Part shown: piece by piece, positions 12,755 through 56,187 of the stretch | Numbering within the stretch: the first letter of the stretch is position 1 | Layout of the letters: every line of letters starts with the position of its first letter | Assembly (NCBI RefSeq): GCF_021298855.1 | Contig: NZ_JAJTHI010000010.1 | Coordinates: 124,001-188,000 of the forward strand | Length of the DNA: 64,000 nucleotides | Source: Gemmatimonas sp. | Lineage (GTDB): Bacteria; Gemmatimonadota; Gemmatimonadetes; Gemmatimonadales; Gemmatimonadaceae | Direction: 5' to 3' | Notes under the pieces: model-generated | Databases searched by the model: none | Told to the model about the DNA's origin: nothing | Seen by the model: only the letters and a program-made list of their open reading frames with translations | Made by a program: the position numbers and the translations under genes

Positions 12755-13242
12755 GGCGCACCGCCGGCAACGACGCTCTGTCGCTTGACCTCGACACTGT
12801 CCAGCACGGCCATACCGCGCGCGCCATGCGCCTCGGAAACCGACAGCATGAAGGAGGGCGTGGCCGCGGGCGTGGTGCGCACGAACGCCAACCGTACCAG
12901 CGCCCCGGCGTGGGTGCCGCCTGCCCAGGCGGCCGCCACGCGTACCGTGGCGCCGTGCGCCTTGCAGGCCAGCAGCGCATCGGTCTGCTGCGCCTCGCAC
13001 TGGACGAACGTCCAGTCGCCCGCGTGCGCCACTTCACCGGTGATGCTGCCGAGCGTCTGGGGGGCCGCGCCGCCCAACACGACGTCAACGAAGACGCTGT
13101 CGTTCACGGGGCGCGCCTGCAGCGACAGCGACGTGGCCGCCACGGGCACCATGGCGTCGGTGAGATCGGTGCGGCGGCAGGCACCGGCCGTGAGCACGAC
13201 GGCGAGGATCGCGAGTCGGGGAAACCGGGAAGAGGTCATCAT
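12751..13242 (-). CDS. Lipoprotein with cohesin-like beta-sandwich domain
   Basis: This 163-residue protein has a signal with lipobox (LTAG-C, Cys22). The mature part has a strand pattern reminiscent of cohesins and related carbohydrate-binding folds: an early VFVDVVLGG strand, LGSITGEVAHAG, then AGALVRLAFVRT and a final strand near the C-terminus. No close named family is recognised and the cohesin similarity is by eye only. The start overlaps the previous gene by 4 nt (ATGA at 13242-13239; ATG at 13239 is also possible). Membership in an operon that ends with a dockerin protein makes a docking role plausible. Confidence 0.6.
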   Translation of the reverse strand: MMTSSRFPRLAILAVVLTAGACRRTDLTDAMVPVAATSLSLQARPVNDSVFVDVVLGGAAPQTLGSITGEVAHAGDWTFVQCEAQQTDALLACKAHGATVRVAAAWAGGTHAGALVRLAFVRTTPAATPSFMLSVSEAHGARGMAVLDSVEVKRQSVVAGGAP

Positions 13243-15290
13243 GGAATGATCACCGACGGATTGAAGATCGAGGTGGCCGCCGTGACATCGGTGAGGTCAC
13301 CCCGCAGCAACTGATTGAGCGTGATCACGAGTTGGTTGCCCTGACTGCGCTGGTTCACCCGTGCCTGCAAGCGAATGAGCTGGACGGGCCCGGTGACCGG
13401 TGTGGCGCTGGCCCAGGTCACCCGCAAGGACTGGGCAAGATCGACCTGCTGCGTGAACATGCCGGGGCGCAGCAGCGTGAATCCGGTGACGTTGAAGGGC
13501 GAAAACAGGAAGGCCCGATTGCCCGGCCACGCCACCTCGAAGTCTGCGGCCGTCAACGGGCGCCCATCGCGCGGGACGATTTCGAGGGTGATCGAGAAGG
13601 TGTCGGTGGCGATGCGATAGCTTGGCAGGGTGGCGCGGAGAATGGGCCCGGTGCCGCTCTTCGGTACGAAGACCAGCAGGGAATCGGCGACGCTGCTGGT
13701 TCGACTGGCCTGGGCCACGATGAACGTGCGACCGGCGCCGGCGCCGGTAATGCGACCGGTGGCCGACACCGTGGCCACCGAGGGATCGCGCGAGACCCAC
13801 CGCACACTGGCCGGGCTCGTGGGCTGCCCCTGCAGGTCGCGCGTCAGCAGAAATGGCGTCAGCGAGGAGGTCGCGCCATCGAGTTCGATCACGCGCACCG
13901 ACGTGTCGGCCTCCGAACGCGCTGTCACGATGCGAATGGGCTGCGTGGTGGTGTCGATGGCCCCCACGGCGATCGGGCGGGACGTCGCCGCCGTCAGCCC
14001 CTCGGCGCCAAAGCGCAGCGTCCGGGTCCCTGCCCCCGTGGCAAAGGTGAGCCCCGTGAAGGTGGCGCGCCCCACCGCGTCGGTAATGGCGGTCTCGCGA
14101 ACGAACGTCGCCCCGTCGCTGGTGACGCGCACCGTCACTCCGGACTCCTCCGAGAAGTTGTTCAACGCATCGACGAGCCGCACCACCGGCGCCGGCTGCA
14201 TCGCGATACCGGCGTCGATGGTGGCAGGAACATCGCGATCGATCACCACCCGGGTGGGGACGCCGCCGCTCAGCGTCACCGTGGCCGTGGCCGGTGTGGT
14301 AATGGAATCGGCCGCCACGGCCAGCGAGCGGGTACCGGCCGTGCCGGTCACCGTGAGGGCGCTGAAGACCGCCCGCCCCTGGGCATCGGTCGCGGTGGTG
14401 GTACCGCTCACGGTGGTGTTGCCAATGCCGCCCGTGACGGACGCCACCACGCGTCGCCCGCTCAGCGCCACGGCGTTGCCGTCCTGATCGCGCAGCTGCG
14501 CCACGACGCCGGTGGCGCCGGCCGGGACGCCGCTGCGCAGGCGGAGCGCGGAGCTCACCAGCGCGATGCTCGACACGGGGCCGGGCGCGAGGTCGATGCC
14601 CTCGGACGCCGCGGTGATGAGATTGCCGGCCGTGAAGAGCAGCGTGCGCGAGCCCGCCACGCCTTGCAGCGCCAGGTCGGTGAAGCGGGCGACCCCCTGC
14701 TGCGCCGGAACGGTGGTGGTCCCGGAGACCCCCCCAATGCTGGTCGTGACCGACACCGCGATGGTGCTCGACGTGACGAGGTTGTCGGCGGCATCCCGCA
14801 CCTCGACGACGGGTTGGGTGAGCAGCGGAGTGCGCTGGGCCGCACCGGCCGGCTGGCGTACGACCGTCAGCTTTGCCGCAGCACCCGCAGTAACCGTGAT
14901 GGGCAGGCTCCCCGTCGTGCCCGCGACCGTGGCGGTGATGGTGGCGGTGCCGGCCCTGGCACCGGTCACCAGCCCCGTGGCTGATACCGTGGCCACGGTG
15001 GCGTCGGCGGACCCCCACGTGATGGACGGGTTCGTGACCGGCCGGCCCTTGCTGTCGCGATAGGCGGCGGTGAGCTGGACCGTGGCCCCCGAGGTCACGG
15101 AGGTGGATCCGGTCGCCGTCACGGTTACCACGGCGGGCACATCAGGCTCTGCCGGATCACCACCGCAGGCGGTGATCGTGGCCGCAACGGCGGCCAGCAG
15201 GATGCTGGACCACGCGCGACCACCAGCGGGGGGACGCATGGCACGTGGCGGCACCGGCGCACGCCGGATCACACGGAAAAGGGCAGACAT
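13239..15290 (-). CDS. Multi-Ig-domain (BIG2-type) surface lipoprotein with cohesin-like C-terminus
   Basis: This 683-residue protein has a lipobox ATITA-C (Cys42; Cys25 if translation begins at the internal ATG at 15239). The first Ig-like domain is of BIG2 type (VTSGATVQLTAAYRDSKGRP ... VSATGLVTGARAGTATIT). Several filamin/invasin-like units follow, each with LRDQDGNAV or VVRLVDALNN type starts and DAQGRAVFSALTVTG type ends, then another BIG2 (ATVSATGRITGAGAGRTF). The last about 130 residues look cohesin-like (DTFSITLEIVPRDGRPLTAA, then SLRVTWASATPVTGPVQLI). It is the first gene of the operon and is probably a stalk that displays a docking head. An 80-nt gap separates it from the phosphopantetheinyl transferase gene upstream. 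Confidence 0.75.
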   Translation of the reverse strand: MSALFRVIRRAPVPPRAMRPPAGGRAWSSILLAAVAATITACGGDPAEPDVPAVVTVTATGSTSVTSGATVQLTAAYRDSKGRPVTNPSITWGSADATVATVSATGLVTGARAGTATITATVAGTTGSLPITVTAGAAAKLTVVRQPAGAAQRTPLLTQPVVEVRDAADNLVTSSTIAVSVTTSIGGVSGTTTVPAQQGVARFTDLALQGVAGSRTLLFTAGNLITAASEGIDLAPGPVSSIALVSSALRLRSGVPAGATGVVAQLRDQDGNAVALSGRRVVASVTGGIGNTTVSGTTTATDAQGRAVFSALTVTGTAGTRSLAVAADSITTPATATVTLSGGVPTRVVIDRDVPATIDAGIAMQPAPVVRLVDALNNFSEESGVTVRVTSDGATFVRETAITDAVGRATFTGLTFATGAGTRTLRFGAEGLTAATSRPIAVGAIDTTTQPIRIVTARSEADTSVRVIELDGATSSLTPFLLTRDLQGQPTSPASVRWVSRDPSVATVSATGRITGAGAGRTFIVAQASRTSSVADSLLVFVPKSGTGPILRATLPSYRIATDTFSITLEIVPRDGRPLTAADFEVAWPGNRAFLFSPFNVTGFTLLRPGMFTQQVDLAQSLRVTWASATPVTGPVQLIRLQARVNQRSQGNQLVITLNQLLRGDLTDVTAATSIFNPSVIIP

Positions 15291-53864: not shown

Positions 53865-55727
53865 TCAGTTGCCTGAGTAGAACGCCAGCCGGTCCACGTC
53901 CACCCATTGCCCGCCAAGCGGCGTGAGAACCGTGGAGGGGCCGCCGCCACGTGTGAAGTCGAGACGCCCACGCAAGAACATCACTTGCGAGCCATGCACC
54001 ACGAAACTCACGTTCCGACGGTCCAGTACCAAGCGCCCATCCACCCACACCCGCTGCTCGCCGTCCGACTGGCCCGGGCTGTTGAGGCGCGTGTAATACT
54101 CGATGTGGAACCATCGGCCGATGGGGATGACGCCGGCCGGTGATAGCGTGGCAACAAGCGGTGCAACCGGTCCGTTCATGGGGCCGTTGAATCCGGCAAG
54201 CTCCCCATTGCGCCCAACGTTGAGCAGCGGCGCCCCCGCGCCTGGCGCCACAAGCACCGGGTAGAGCAGCTTTTCGGTGTTCGTATGGAACTGGTAGTTC
54301 GCACTGTAGCGCAGTCGCACCGACATGTAGTGGGACCGGGTATTCATTTCGCCCGTCGTGATCGTCATCGGCCCGACGCCGTTCCCCGCGTGCCGCTCCG
54401 GGAACCATGCCCGCACTACGGAGCGCCCATCCACGTTCATCAGCGCCACGCCGTGCGTCGTGGGCGACTGCACCGTGTTGCGGTCCCAGTTGATGATTTC
54501 GATGCCGGGAACGGTCGGGCTGTCGAAATCGGAGTCACCCACCAGCCGCATGCCGCTCGGGAGGTTGGGGGTGAACGCGGTGGGGACTGGGGCGGGCGGC
54601 GGCGTCGTCGCCGTCACCGTCACCGTGGCCGTGTCGCGCAGCGAGCCGCCGGTGTGCGCCACGATCACACGGAATGTGCCGCTCGTGGCCGGGGCAACCC
54701 AGAGTCCCGTGCTGGCATTGATGCTCCCGCCATCAGGTGCCTGGTAGGTGACCGGCGGCAACGTGGTGGCACCCGTGGACCACGAGGCGGTCGCCGAGAA
54801 CTGCACCGACGCGCCACCGGCCACCGAACTGGTGCGCGGCGCGATGCGCAGCGTGACCAGCTGAGCCGCGGCCACCGTGATGCTCGCCGTGTCGCGCACC
54901 GGCGTCGCCGTGCTGCTCACCACGACGCGGTAGCGACCAGCCGTGGCCGGCGCGACAAAGGCACCACTGGTCGCGTTGACCGTGCCCCCGTCAAGGGCGG
55001 CGTAGCTGATGGGGGGCAGCGTGGTGGCCCCATTCGACCAGCTGGCGGACGTGGACAGCTGCACGGTCGCACTTGCCGCCACGGACACGTCCTTCGGCGA
55101 GATCCGGAGCGCGGTGACGGTGGGTGCCGGTGCGGCCGTTTGGATGGCAACGGCCGACGTGTCCGCCACGCCGCAGGCGCAGGTAGCCACTACCATGAAC
55201 GTGCCGGCAAGGCTGCCCGCCGTATACAATCCAGAAGAAGAAATGGTGCCTCCCGTTGCTGAATACGTCACCGGCGGCAATGCGGTGCTGCCATCGGACC
55301 AGCGGGCGGACACGGCAAACTGCTGCCTGCCGCCGGTGGAAAGTTGAGCAGTCCCGGGGCTCAGCGTAAGGCTTGTCACCGTGGGCGTCGCACTGGCCAC
55401 CGAGACGGTGGTCCGTTCGAGTCCGTTCCCGCCGGACGCCGTGATGAGGGCCGTCCCCCCAGCCACGCCGACCACCATGCCGCTGCGGGAAACCCCCGCC
55501 ACTCCAGGGTTGCTGCTGCTCCAGCGAACCGACCGCTTGAGGTTCACCGGCGTCAACTGAACCGAATCCCGGACGCGCAGGGACACCGCGCTGCCGGTTC
55601 GGGCCGTCACCAGGGACGCGCTGGGAATCCCGGTGACGAGTTCGCTGGTGGCTCGATCGCCGGCGCAGGCCGAGACGAGCAGGGTGGCGGCGAGGGCGCC
55701 GGTGAGACGCGCATAGCGGATGTGCAC
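53865..55727 (-). CDS. Ig-repeat lipoprotein with C-terminal jelly-roll (polysaccharide-lyase-like) domain
   Basis: This 620-residue surface lipoprotein has lipobox LLVSA-C (Cys21). A BIG2-like domain (VQLTPVNLKRSVRWSSSNPG) is followed by three tandem repeats of about 85 residues with TALRISP or TLRIAP starts and ASWSxGATTLPP cores. The C-terminal about 230 residues look like a concanavalin-type jelly-roll (MTITTGEMNTRSHYMSVRLR ... WFHIEYYTRLNSPGQSDGEQ and WVDGRLVLDRRNV), resembling polysaccharide lyase or lectin domains. It starts with GTG 55727 behind AGGAG. A c-di-GMP riboswitch-like leader precedes it, so it is probably an adhesin or matrix protein under c-di-GMP control. Enzymatic activity is not shown. 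Confidence 0.8.
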   Translation of the reverse strand: MHIRYARLTGALAATLLVSACAGDRATSELVTGIPSASLVTARTGSAVSLRVRDSVQLTPVNLKRSVRWSSSNPGVAGVSRSGMVVGVAGGTALITASGGNGLERTTVSVASATPTVTSLTLSPGTAQLSTGGRQQFAVSARWSDGSTALPPVTYSATGGTISSSGLYTAGSLAGTFMVVATCACGVADTSAVAIQTAAPAPTVTALRISPKDVSVAASATVQLSTSASWSNGATTLPPISYAALDGGTVNATSGAFVAPATAGRYRVVVSSTATPVRDTASITVAAAQLVTLRIAPRTSSVAGGASVQFSATASWSTGATTLPPVTYQAPDGGSINASTGLWVAPATSGTFRVIVAHTGGSLRDTATVTVTATTPPPAPVPTAFTPNLPSGMRLVGDSDFDSPTVPGIEIINWDRNTVQSPTTHGVALMNVDGRSVVRAWFPERHAGNGVGPMTITTGEMNTRSHYMSVRLRYSANYQFHTNTEKLLYPVLVAPGAGAPLLNVGRNGELAGFNGPMNGPVAPLVATLSPAGVIPIGRWFHIEYYTRLNSPGQSDGEQRVWVDGRLVLDRRNVSFVVHGSQVMFLRGRLDFTRGGGPSTVLTPLGGQWVDVDRLAFYSGN

Positions 55728-55733
55728 TGACTT

Positions 55734-55753
55734 CTCCTGATCCGGTCCCGGAT
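55734..55753 (-). promoter_or_regulatory. Expression-platform hairpin and ribosome-binding site
   Basis: On the minus strand ATCCGG-GA-CCGGAT (55753-55740), a perfect 6-nt inverted pair, ends one base before AGGAG (55738-55734), 6 nt upstream of the GTG start 55727. It also abuts the 3' end of the aptamer. This is the layout of a translational switch. The way ligand binding changes the pairing is not worked out. Confidence 0.55.
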
Positions 55754-55845
55754 TCGGTAGCCCAGCCGGCGTGGCGACCTTCGTCGCGGTAGCCCCGAGG
55801 CTTTGCGTCCCCGCCTTTCGGCGGGTATGCCGTTTCGTCGATGAG
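55750..55845 (-). promoter_or_regulatory. Cyclic-di-GMP-I (GEMM) riboswitch aptamer
   Basis: The minus strand closely follows the class I consensus: AAACGGCATACC, a P2 stem CCCGCC/GGCGGG capped by a GAAA tetraloop, the conserved GGACGCAAAGCC, a P3 arm ending in the hairpin GCGAC-GAAG-GTCGC, then GCCGGCTGGGCTACCGA. By hand alignment with the Vibrio Vc2 RNA, the guanine that reads the ligand (G20) and the cytosine C92 are both kept, favouring c-di-GMP over cGAMP. It sits 23-120 nt upstream of the lipoprotein start, in the correct direction. Confidence 0.82.
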
Positions 55846-56187
55846 TCGGGTCGCGGTGTGCACCATCACACAACCTCGGCCTGAGGTCCGACTCGCATGA
55901 GCGACGATATGGATAAGCCGCCCGTCACCGCGTTTCAGTGACTCAAAACACAGAGGCCATCCGATGTGACAACTCGTGCCGTCACGCGCTCGCGGCATCA
56001 CAATTCTGGCCGTTTTCCTCACGTTGGAAGTCGTATGTCCCATGGCAGCGTGGCGCCCACGAACACGCGCACTGGTGACTCCAAGGCGGCCTGAACCGTA
56101 TTACGGGTGATGGGTTGGTTGGCTCCGTTCCGTAGCGATACCCCGCCATGGGCTGCCGTACCGCGGCGCCTCTCCGTTTCTTGATCA
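55846..56187. other. Intergenic region upstream of riboswitch and quinoprotein gene (342 nt)
   Basis: It must contain two divergent promoters. On the minus strand GGCTTATCCATATCG is a possible -10 region for the riboswitch transcript. Nothing convincing was found for the plus-strand gene. No coding ORF or RNA gene is supported. Confidence 0.4.

Follow-up and report, generated by a model that had tools for sequence, protein, structure and literature searches.

Class I cyclic di-GMP (c-di-GMP) riboswitches that control secreted adhesins are already known. Vc1, upstream of gbpA in Vibrio cholerae (PMC4744006), and Bc2, upstream of cap in Bacillus thuringiensis (PMC4933901), are ON switches for secreted adhesins, and adhesins of C. 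difficile are also under c-di-GMP riboswitch control (PMC6366702). Vc2, the best-studied translational switch of the class, is an OFF switch with the P1 helix as its key (PMC9262584); known class I switches act in both directions (PMC6366702). The Gemmatimonas element described here adds one more to this set. It resembles Vc1-gbpA in its class I aptamer with the same contact bases, in not being terminator-based and in its place in the leader of a surface protein, GbpA being a secreted polysaccharide-binding surface protein (PMC4744006). However, it belongs to another phylum, and whereas GbpA is chitin-binding with a 225-nt leader, the present leader places its start codon 25 nt past the aptamer and serves an Ig-repeat lipoprotein encoded beside an exopolysaccharide (EPS) locus. 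Bc2-cap likewise has a class I aptamer, and its target is a surface adhesin with a role in EPS and biofilm, but it uses a terminator/anti-terminator (PMC4933901), which the present leader lacks. As in Vc2, P1 stability is the proposed switching element and the proposed mode is translational, although platform sequence and target gene differ from those of Vc2 (PMC9262584).

The aptamer (positions 55,753–55,841, minus strand) matches the Rfam model RF01051 (c-di-GMP-I, GEMM-I) from 55,841 to 55,753 over its full length (cmscan, model positions 1–87 of 87, E 6.6e-13), with 75.1 bits against a gathering cut-off of 35 bits, and is the sole match in the window (the whole 64-kb stretch analysed here), no second Rfam family rising above its cut-off. 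It comprises P2 and P3, with the GAAA tetraloop of P2 seen as CCGAAAGG in the covariance-model alignment, and is identical to the consensus at 32 of 36 strongly conserved positions. The preliminary description, which placed a c-di-GMP-I riboswitch at 55,734–55,845, proposed a covariance-model search and held that the GEMM core is reproduced almost base for base, is thus borne out by a wide margin, and its coordinates correctly span aptamer, hairpin and Shine-Dalgarno sequence. The aptamer lies on the same strand as its gene, with the GTG start 25 nt downstream of the aptamer end. Immediately 5′ of it, an inverted repeat, GAGTCGG...CCGACTC (55,843–55,894, minus strand), is, from sequence and folding, a candidate RNA hairpin or operator.

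The leader ends, as first described, in a hairpin abutting AGGAG. This hairpin, H1 (AUCCG-GGAC-CGGAU, 55,740–55,753, minus strand), is seen in the sequence and in constrained folding, keeps its stem in the corresponding sister-genome locus (L035) and stops one base ahead of the Shine-Dalgarno sequence (AGGAG, 55,734–55,738, minus strand), itself 6 nt before the GTG at 55,727. The putative inner 5′ strand of P1, GACG (55,836–55,839, minus strand), would pair with CG (55,756–55,755) and UC (55,752–55,751) across the AA bulge that marks P1 family-wide, and a possible outer strand, CCCG (55,847–55,850, minus strand), would pair with CGGG (55,750–55,747) according to constrained folding. Because P1 3′ strand and H1 5′ arm share bases, P1 and H1 are mutually exclusive. 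A weaker candidate is AUCCG in codons 3–4 (55,717–55,721, minus strand), which could pair with the H1 3′ arm, CGGAU, enclosing the Shine-Dalgarno sequence and start codon. Only one close orthologue of the window leader was found. Across the family, AA-bulged P1 extends outward by a mean of 2.03 contiguous pairs in 38 non-redundant loci, against 1.02 ± 0.14 when partners are permuted (500 permutations, maximum 1.47; 41 loci off the anchor pattern left out), and by 0.03 pairs in the same loci without the bulge.

From these elements we infer, with a probability of about 0.8, that the surface-lipoprotein mRNA is controlled, most likely at translation, by a c-di-GMP-I riboswitch in its 5′ leader that alternates between P1 and H1, and that the product acts on or anchors to EPS. 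c-di-GMP would bind the P2/P3 scaffold and stabilize the short P1, in which GACG pairs with CG-aa-UC and CCCG:CGGG probably lengthens the helix. P1 would take bases of the H1 5′ arm, ligand binding would thereby unfold the Shine-Dalgarno-abutting hairpin, and the freed 3′ arm, CCGGAU, could pair around the ribosome-binding site. The product would be a surface Ig-repeat lipoprotein, glycan-binding or a degenerate lyase, acting on or anchored to the neighbouring exopolysaccharide.

Control of the lipoprotein gene is probably translational, since the leader contains no terminator-like site and the start codon follows the aptamer by 25 nt, and a spacing of 10–29 nt recurs in 94 of the 116 loci sampled across the family for which a downstream gene was called. 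A terminator-based platform was rejected for want of such a site. When aptamer and P1 are enforced in constrained folding, opening the ribosome-binding region becomes costlier in six of eight sequence/length combinations and easier in the other two; the enforcement itself costs 7–10 kcal/mol, an amount that ligand binding together with tertiary contacts would need to supply. Constrained folding thus tilts slightly towards a ligand-bound OFF state, but unconstrained folding gives no clean Shine-Dalgarno switch, accessibility staying at ~0.5 in most states and barely changing. The same aptamer could instead form an ON switch, in which H1, touching the Shine-Dalgarno sequence, blocks 30S loading until ligand-stabilized P1 removes it and translation rises with c-di-GMP. 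The position of H1 inside the expected ribosome footprint, the two folding comparisons with easier opening, and Vc1-gbpA and Bc2-cap, both ON for secreted adhesins (PMC4744006, PMC4933901), argue for such a switch, and the six comparisons that lean OFF and the translational, P1-keyed OFF switch Vc2 (PMC9262584) argue against it; we regard it as a real possibility, somewhat short of even odds. Regulation at translation, with OFF weakly favoured, would remain the preferred reading.

Other platforms were considered. Pairing between an upstream anti-Shine-Dalgarno segment and the Shine-Dalgarno sequence gives a weak family-wide signal (mean −1.47 kcal/mol, p 0.003, 65 non-redundant loci) and is not present in the window leader (rank 0.83), for which it was rejected. 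Sequestration of the start codon by an upstream GUGCAC appears in some folds of two related sequences only and is not relied on. RNAalifold on eight leaders of the genus gives the other paralogues a long-range GGG:CCC pairing close to the start codon, which in the window leader shrinks to two AU pairs. Paralogous lipoproteins of the genus (L032–L034, L036, L037 and L048) all begin (A/G)TGCACCCC despite differing signal peptides; a pairing in the RNA between CCC and a GGG that lies 5′ of the aptamer may be the cause. In leaders from other genera (L054, L057, L059, L060 and L062), the aptamer is immediately preceded by a GGCAGGATCGC-type motif and by a hairpin of C-rich and G-rich arms, and the C-rich arm could pair with the Shine-Dalgarno sequence. 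Two or three c-di-GMP-I aptamers stand in tandem in genomes G037 (contigs C3 and C36), G054 (C246, C176 and C1) and G052 (C17), and T-runs that resemble terminators follow those of G037. No sigma-70 promoter was found near the window leader, and sigma-54 patterns occur in the window at a count near chance, with no site within the leader.

The gene downstream (53,865–55,727, minus strand, GTG start) encodes a 620-aa lipoprotein with the lipobox LLVSAC (within ALAATLLVSAC) ending at Cys21, as assigned by a pattern rule. A Big_2 domain (residues 55–108; 35 bits against a Pfam cut-off of 22.8) and, from Pfam and the sister-genome comparison, additional Ig-like repeats that reach approximately residue 370 (54,618–55,565, minus strand) precede a C-terminal jelly roll related to PL14, PL36 and PL20 lyases (53,868–54,581, minus strand), which together confirm the Ig-repeat/jelly-roll architecture originally proposed. 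A search for related loci with the whole lipoprotein sequence returned no relatives. For the domain made up of the C-terminal 238 residues, 13 of 61 related genomes contain matches, and many of these matches adjoin c-di-GMP-I riboswitches (G015, G031, G033, G014, G052 and G054). Against the PDB, a 19-member profile of this domain matches PL36 (E ~1e-8) and PL14 (E ~4e-5) alginate lyases. The AlphaFold2 model (pLDDT 77, pTM 0.82) is nearest to PL36 Aly36B, PL14 vAL-1 and AkAly30, and a glucuronan lyase (TM 0.56–0.64, 12–16% identity), with TM scores of 0.64 to vAL-1 and 0.61 to AkAly30 that place it among jelly rolls. The lipoprotein thus resembles AkAly30, vAL-1 and Aly36B in fold, in the profile match of its C-terminal half and in one aligned active-site lysine, but differs from them in its low identity and in the remaining active-site residues, which were not found. 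We take the PL14 active site in AkAly30 to be K99/S126/R128/Y140/Y142, which fits the numbering offset in the chain. In the alignment to AkAly30, the lysine is matched by lysine, and the serine, arginine and Tyr-x-Tyr positions fall in gaps of a gappy region; a PL14-type active site is not recognisably intact in the lipoprotein. An active polysaccharide lyase that cuts EPS, in place of a binding or structural matrix protein, would fit the lyase profiles, the lyases among the best structural matches and the aligned catalytic lysine. The gapped positions and the Pfam PL14 score (PF21294, 21 bits, below the cut-off of 27) make such an enzyme unlikely. A binding or degenerate-lyase role is favoured, because the lysine is aligned but the serine, arginine and tyrosine pair are not.

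Ligand-contacting bases were mapped through the 27-nt G20–A47 spacing shared by Vc2, Vc1 and Bc1 (PMC4744006, PMC11218506). They are kept, as the preliminary description had claimed: the window aptamer has G at model position 11 (Vc2 G20), A at position 38 (Vc2 A47) and CC at positions 83–84, which includes the equivalent of Vc2 C92. It is predicted to bind c-di-GMP and not 3′,3′-cGAMP, because G and not A occupies the G20 position and the A47 equivalent and the C92-containing CC are retained. A 3′,3′-cGAMP (GEMM-Ib) sensor would belong to the same fold family and differ at just this position, but the cGAMP-type base is A, as in the complex of the G20A variant with 3′,3′-cGAMP (PMC6274999), and with G in the window aptamer this ligand was rejected as very improbable. 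That the aptamer is a degenerate, functionless relic, to which its four differing conserved positions might point, is hardly credible given the full-length 75-bit match, the near-identical aptamer of the sister genome and the widespread association across the family. Elsewhere in the family, 8 of 119 sampled riboswitches show the G20-to-A change that is associated with 3′,3′-cGAMP sensing (L147, L154, L164, L052, L066–L068 and L163), and L147, L154 and L164 precede short genes, that of L147, the one checked, with a STAS domain.

The lipoprotein gene adjoins an exosortase-type EPS locus (18,914–53,614), whose presence had been asserted earlier and is real. It encodes exosortase EpsH, FemAB, asparagine synthase, polysaccharide deacetylase, O-antigen ligase, sugar transferase, an SLBB protein, Wzz/BY-kinase, a sigma-54 regulator and MBOAT; the divergent neighbour of the lipoprotein gene encodes a PQQ-type dehydrogenase. 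In the sister genome (G015), the nearly identical riboswitch aptamer, lipoprotein, neighbours and EPS genes stand in the same order, and the lipoprotein is longer (710 aa) because of one extra Ig-like repeat. A 683-aa Big_2 protein at 13,239–15,290 of the window, on the same (minus) strand as the riboswitch gene, has no riboswitch. The host genome (4.09 Mb, 91 contigs) contains 10 GGDEF matches, 3 EAL matches (2 above the EAL cut-off) and two c-di-GMP-I riboswitches, the second of which, on contig C83, precedes a gene for a 272-aa lipoprotein. The nearest named relatives of a riboswitch-linked protein from this genus come from Gemmatimonas and Gemmatimonadaceae genomes, consistent with a host in Gemmatimonadota. 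For the second aptamer (L039, C83:3890–3979), the RF03167 (GGC) variant model gives the highest score. Every sampled gene for a conserved lipoprotein of 244–289 aa with a GWELGKRDPAYPGGQRF-like motif follows a c-di-GMP-I riboswitch (L039, L038, L041–L047, L090, L093 and L123).

RF01051 matches are present in 123 of 179 Gemmatimonadaceae genomes, from 30 of 35 genera; the 14 control genomes contain none. Related genomes in the family sample are not independent. A lipobox was detected in 94 of 116 target genes by a permissive rule and in 82 by a strict one (about 71–81%), in a sample drawn mainly from better-scoring matches and hence under-representing weak and variant riboswitches, compared with 4 of 38 other window genes under the strict rule (a small comparison set that admitted every start codon). 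The 108 targets scanned for domains include Big_2 (55), subtilase (12), GGDEF (4) and STAS (4), as well as PKD, beta-helix, ricin-type lectin and PL14-type domains. Riboswitches ahead of response-regulator-GGDEF or GGDEF genes (L055, L100–L102 and L124; L069) suggest feedback on c-di-GMP synthesis.

We consider it reasonably probable that the Gemmatimonadaceae possess a lineage-wide c-di-GMP riboswitch regulon, mostly of secreted surface lipoproteins, with targets that would include Ig repeats, lyase-like jelly rolls, subtilases, PKD domains, beta-helices and lectins, and that it sets surface and matrix composition at the mRNA level, gene by gene, through translational platforms built on AA-bulged P1. 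Such a regulon appears to be undescribed; a search of the open-access literature found no paper on c-di-GMP-I riboswitches in Gemmatimonadetes or Gemmatimonadota. The family-wide association of riboswitch and lipoprotein is the interesting part of the result. If the pattern holds, these bacteria of soil and fresh water, for which little genetics exists, link c-di-GMP directly to surface lipoproteins via a class I riboswitch, a link that would be testable with reporters and would provide functional hints for a large set of uncharacterised surface proteins.
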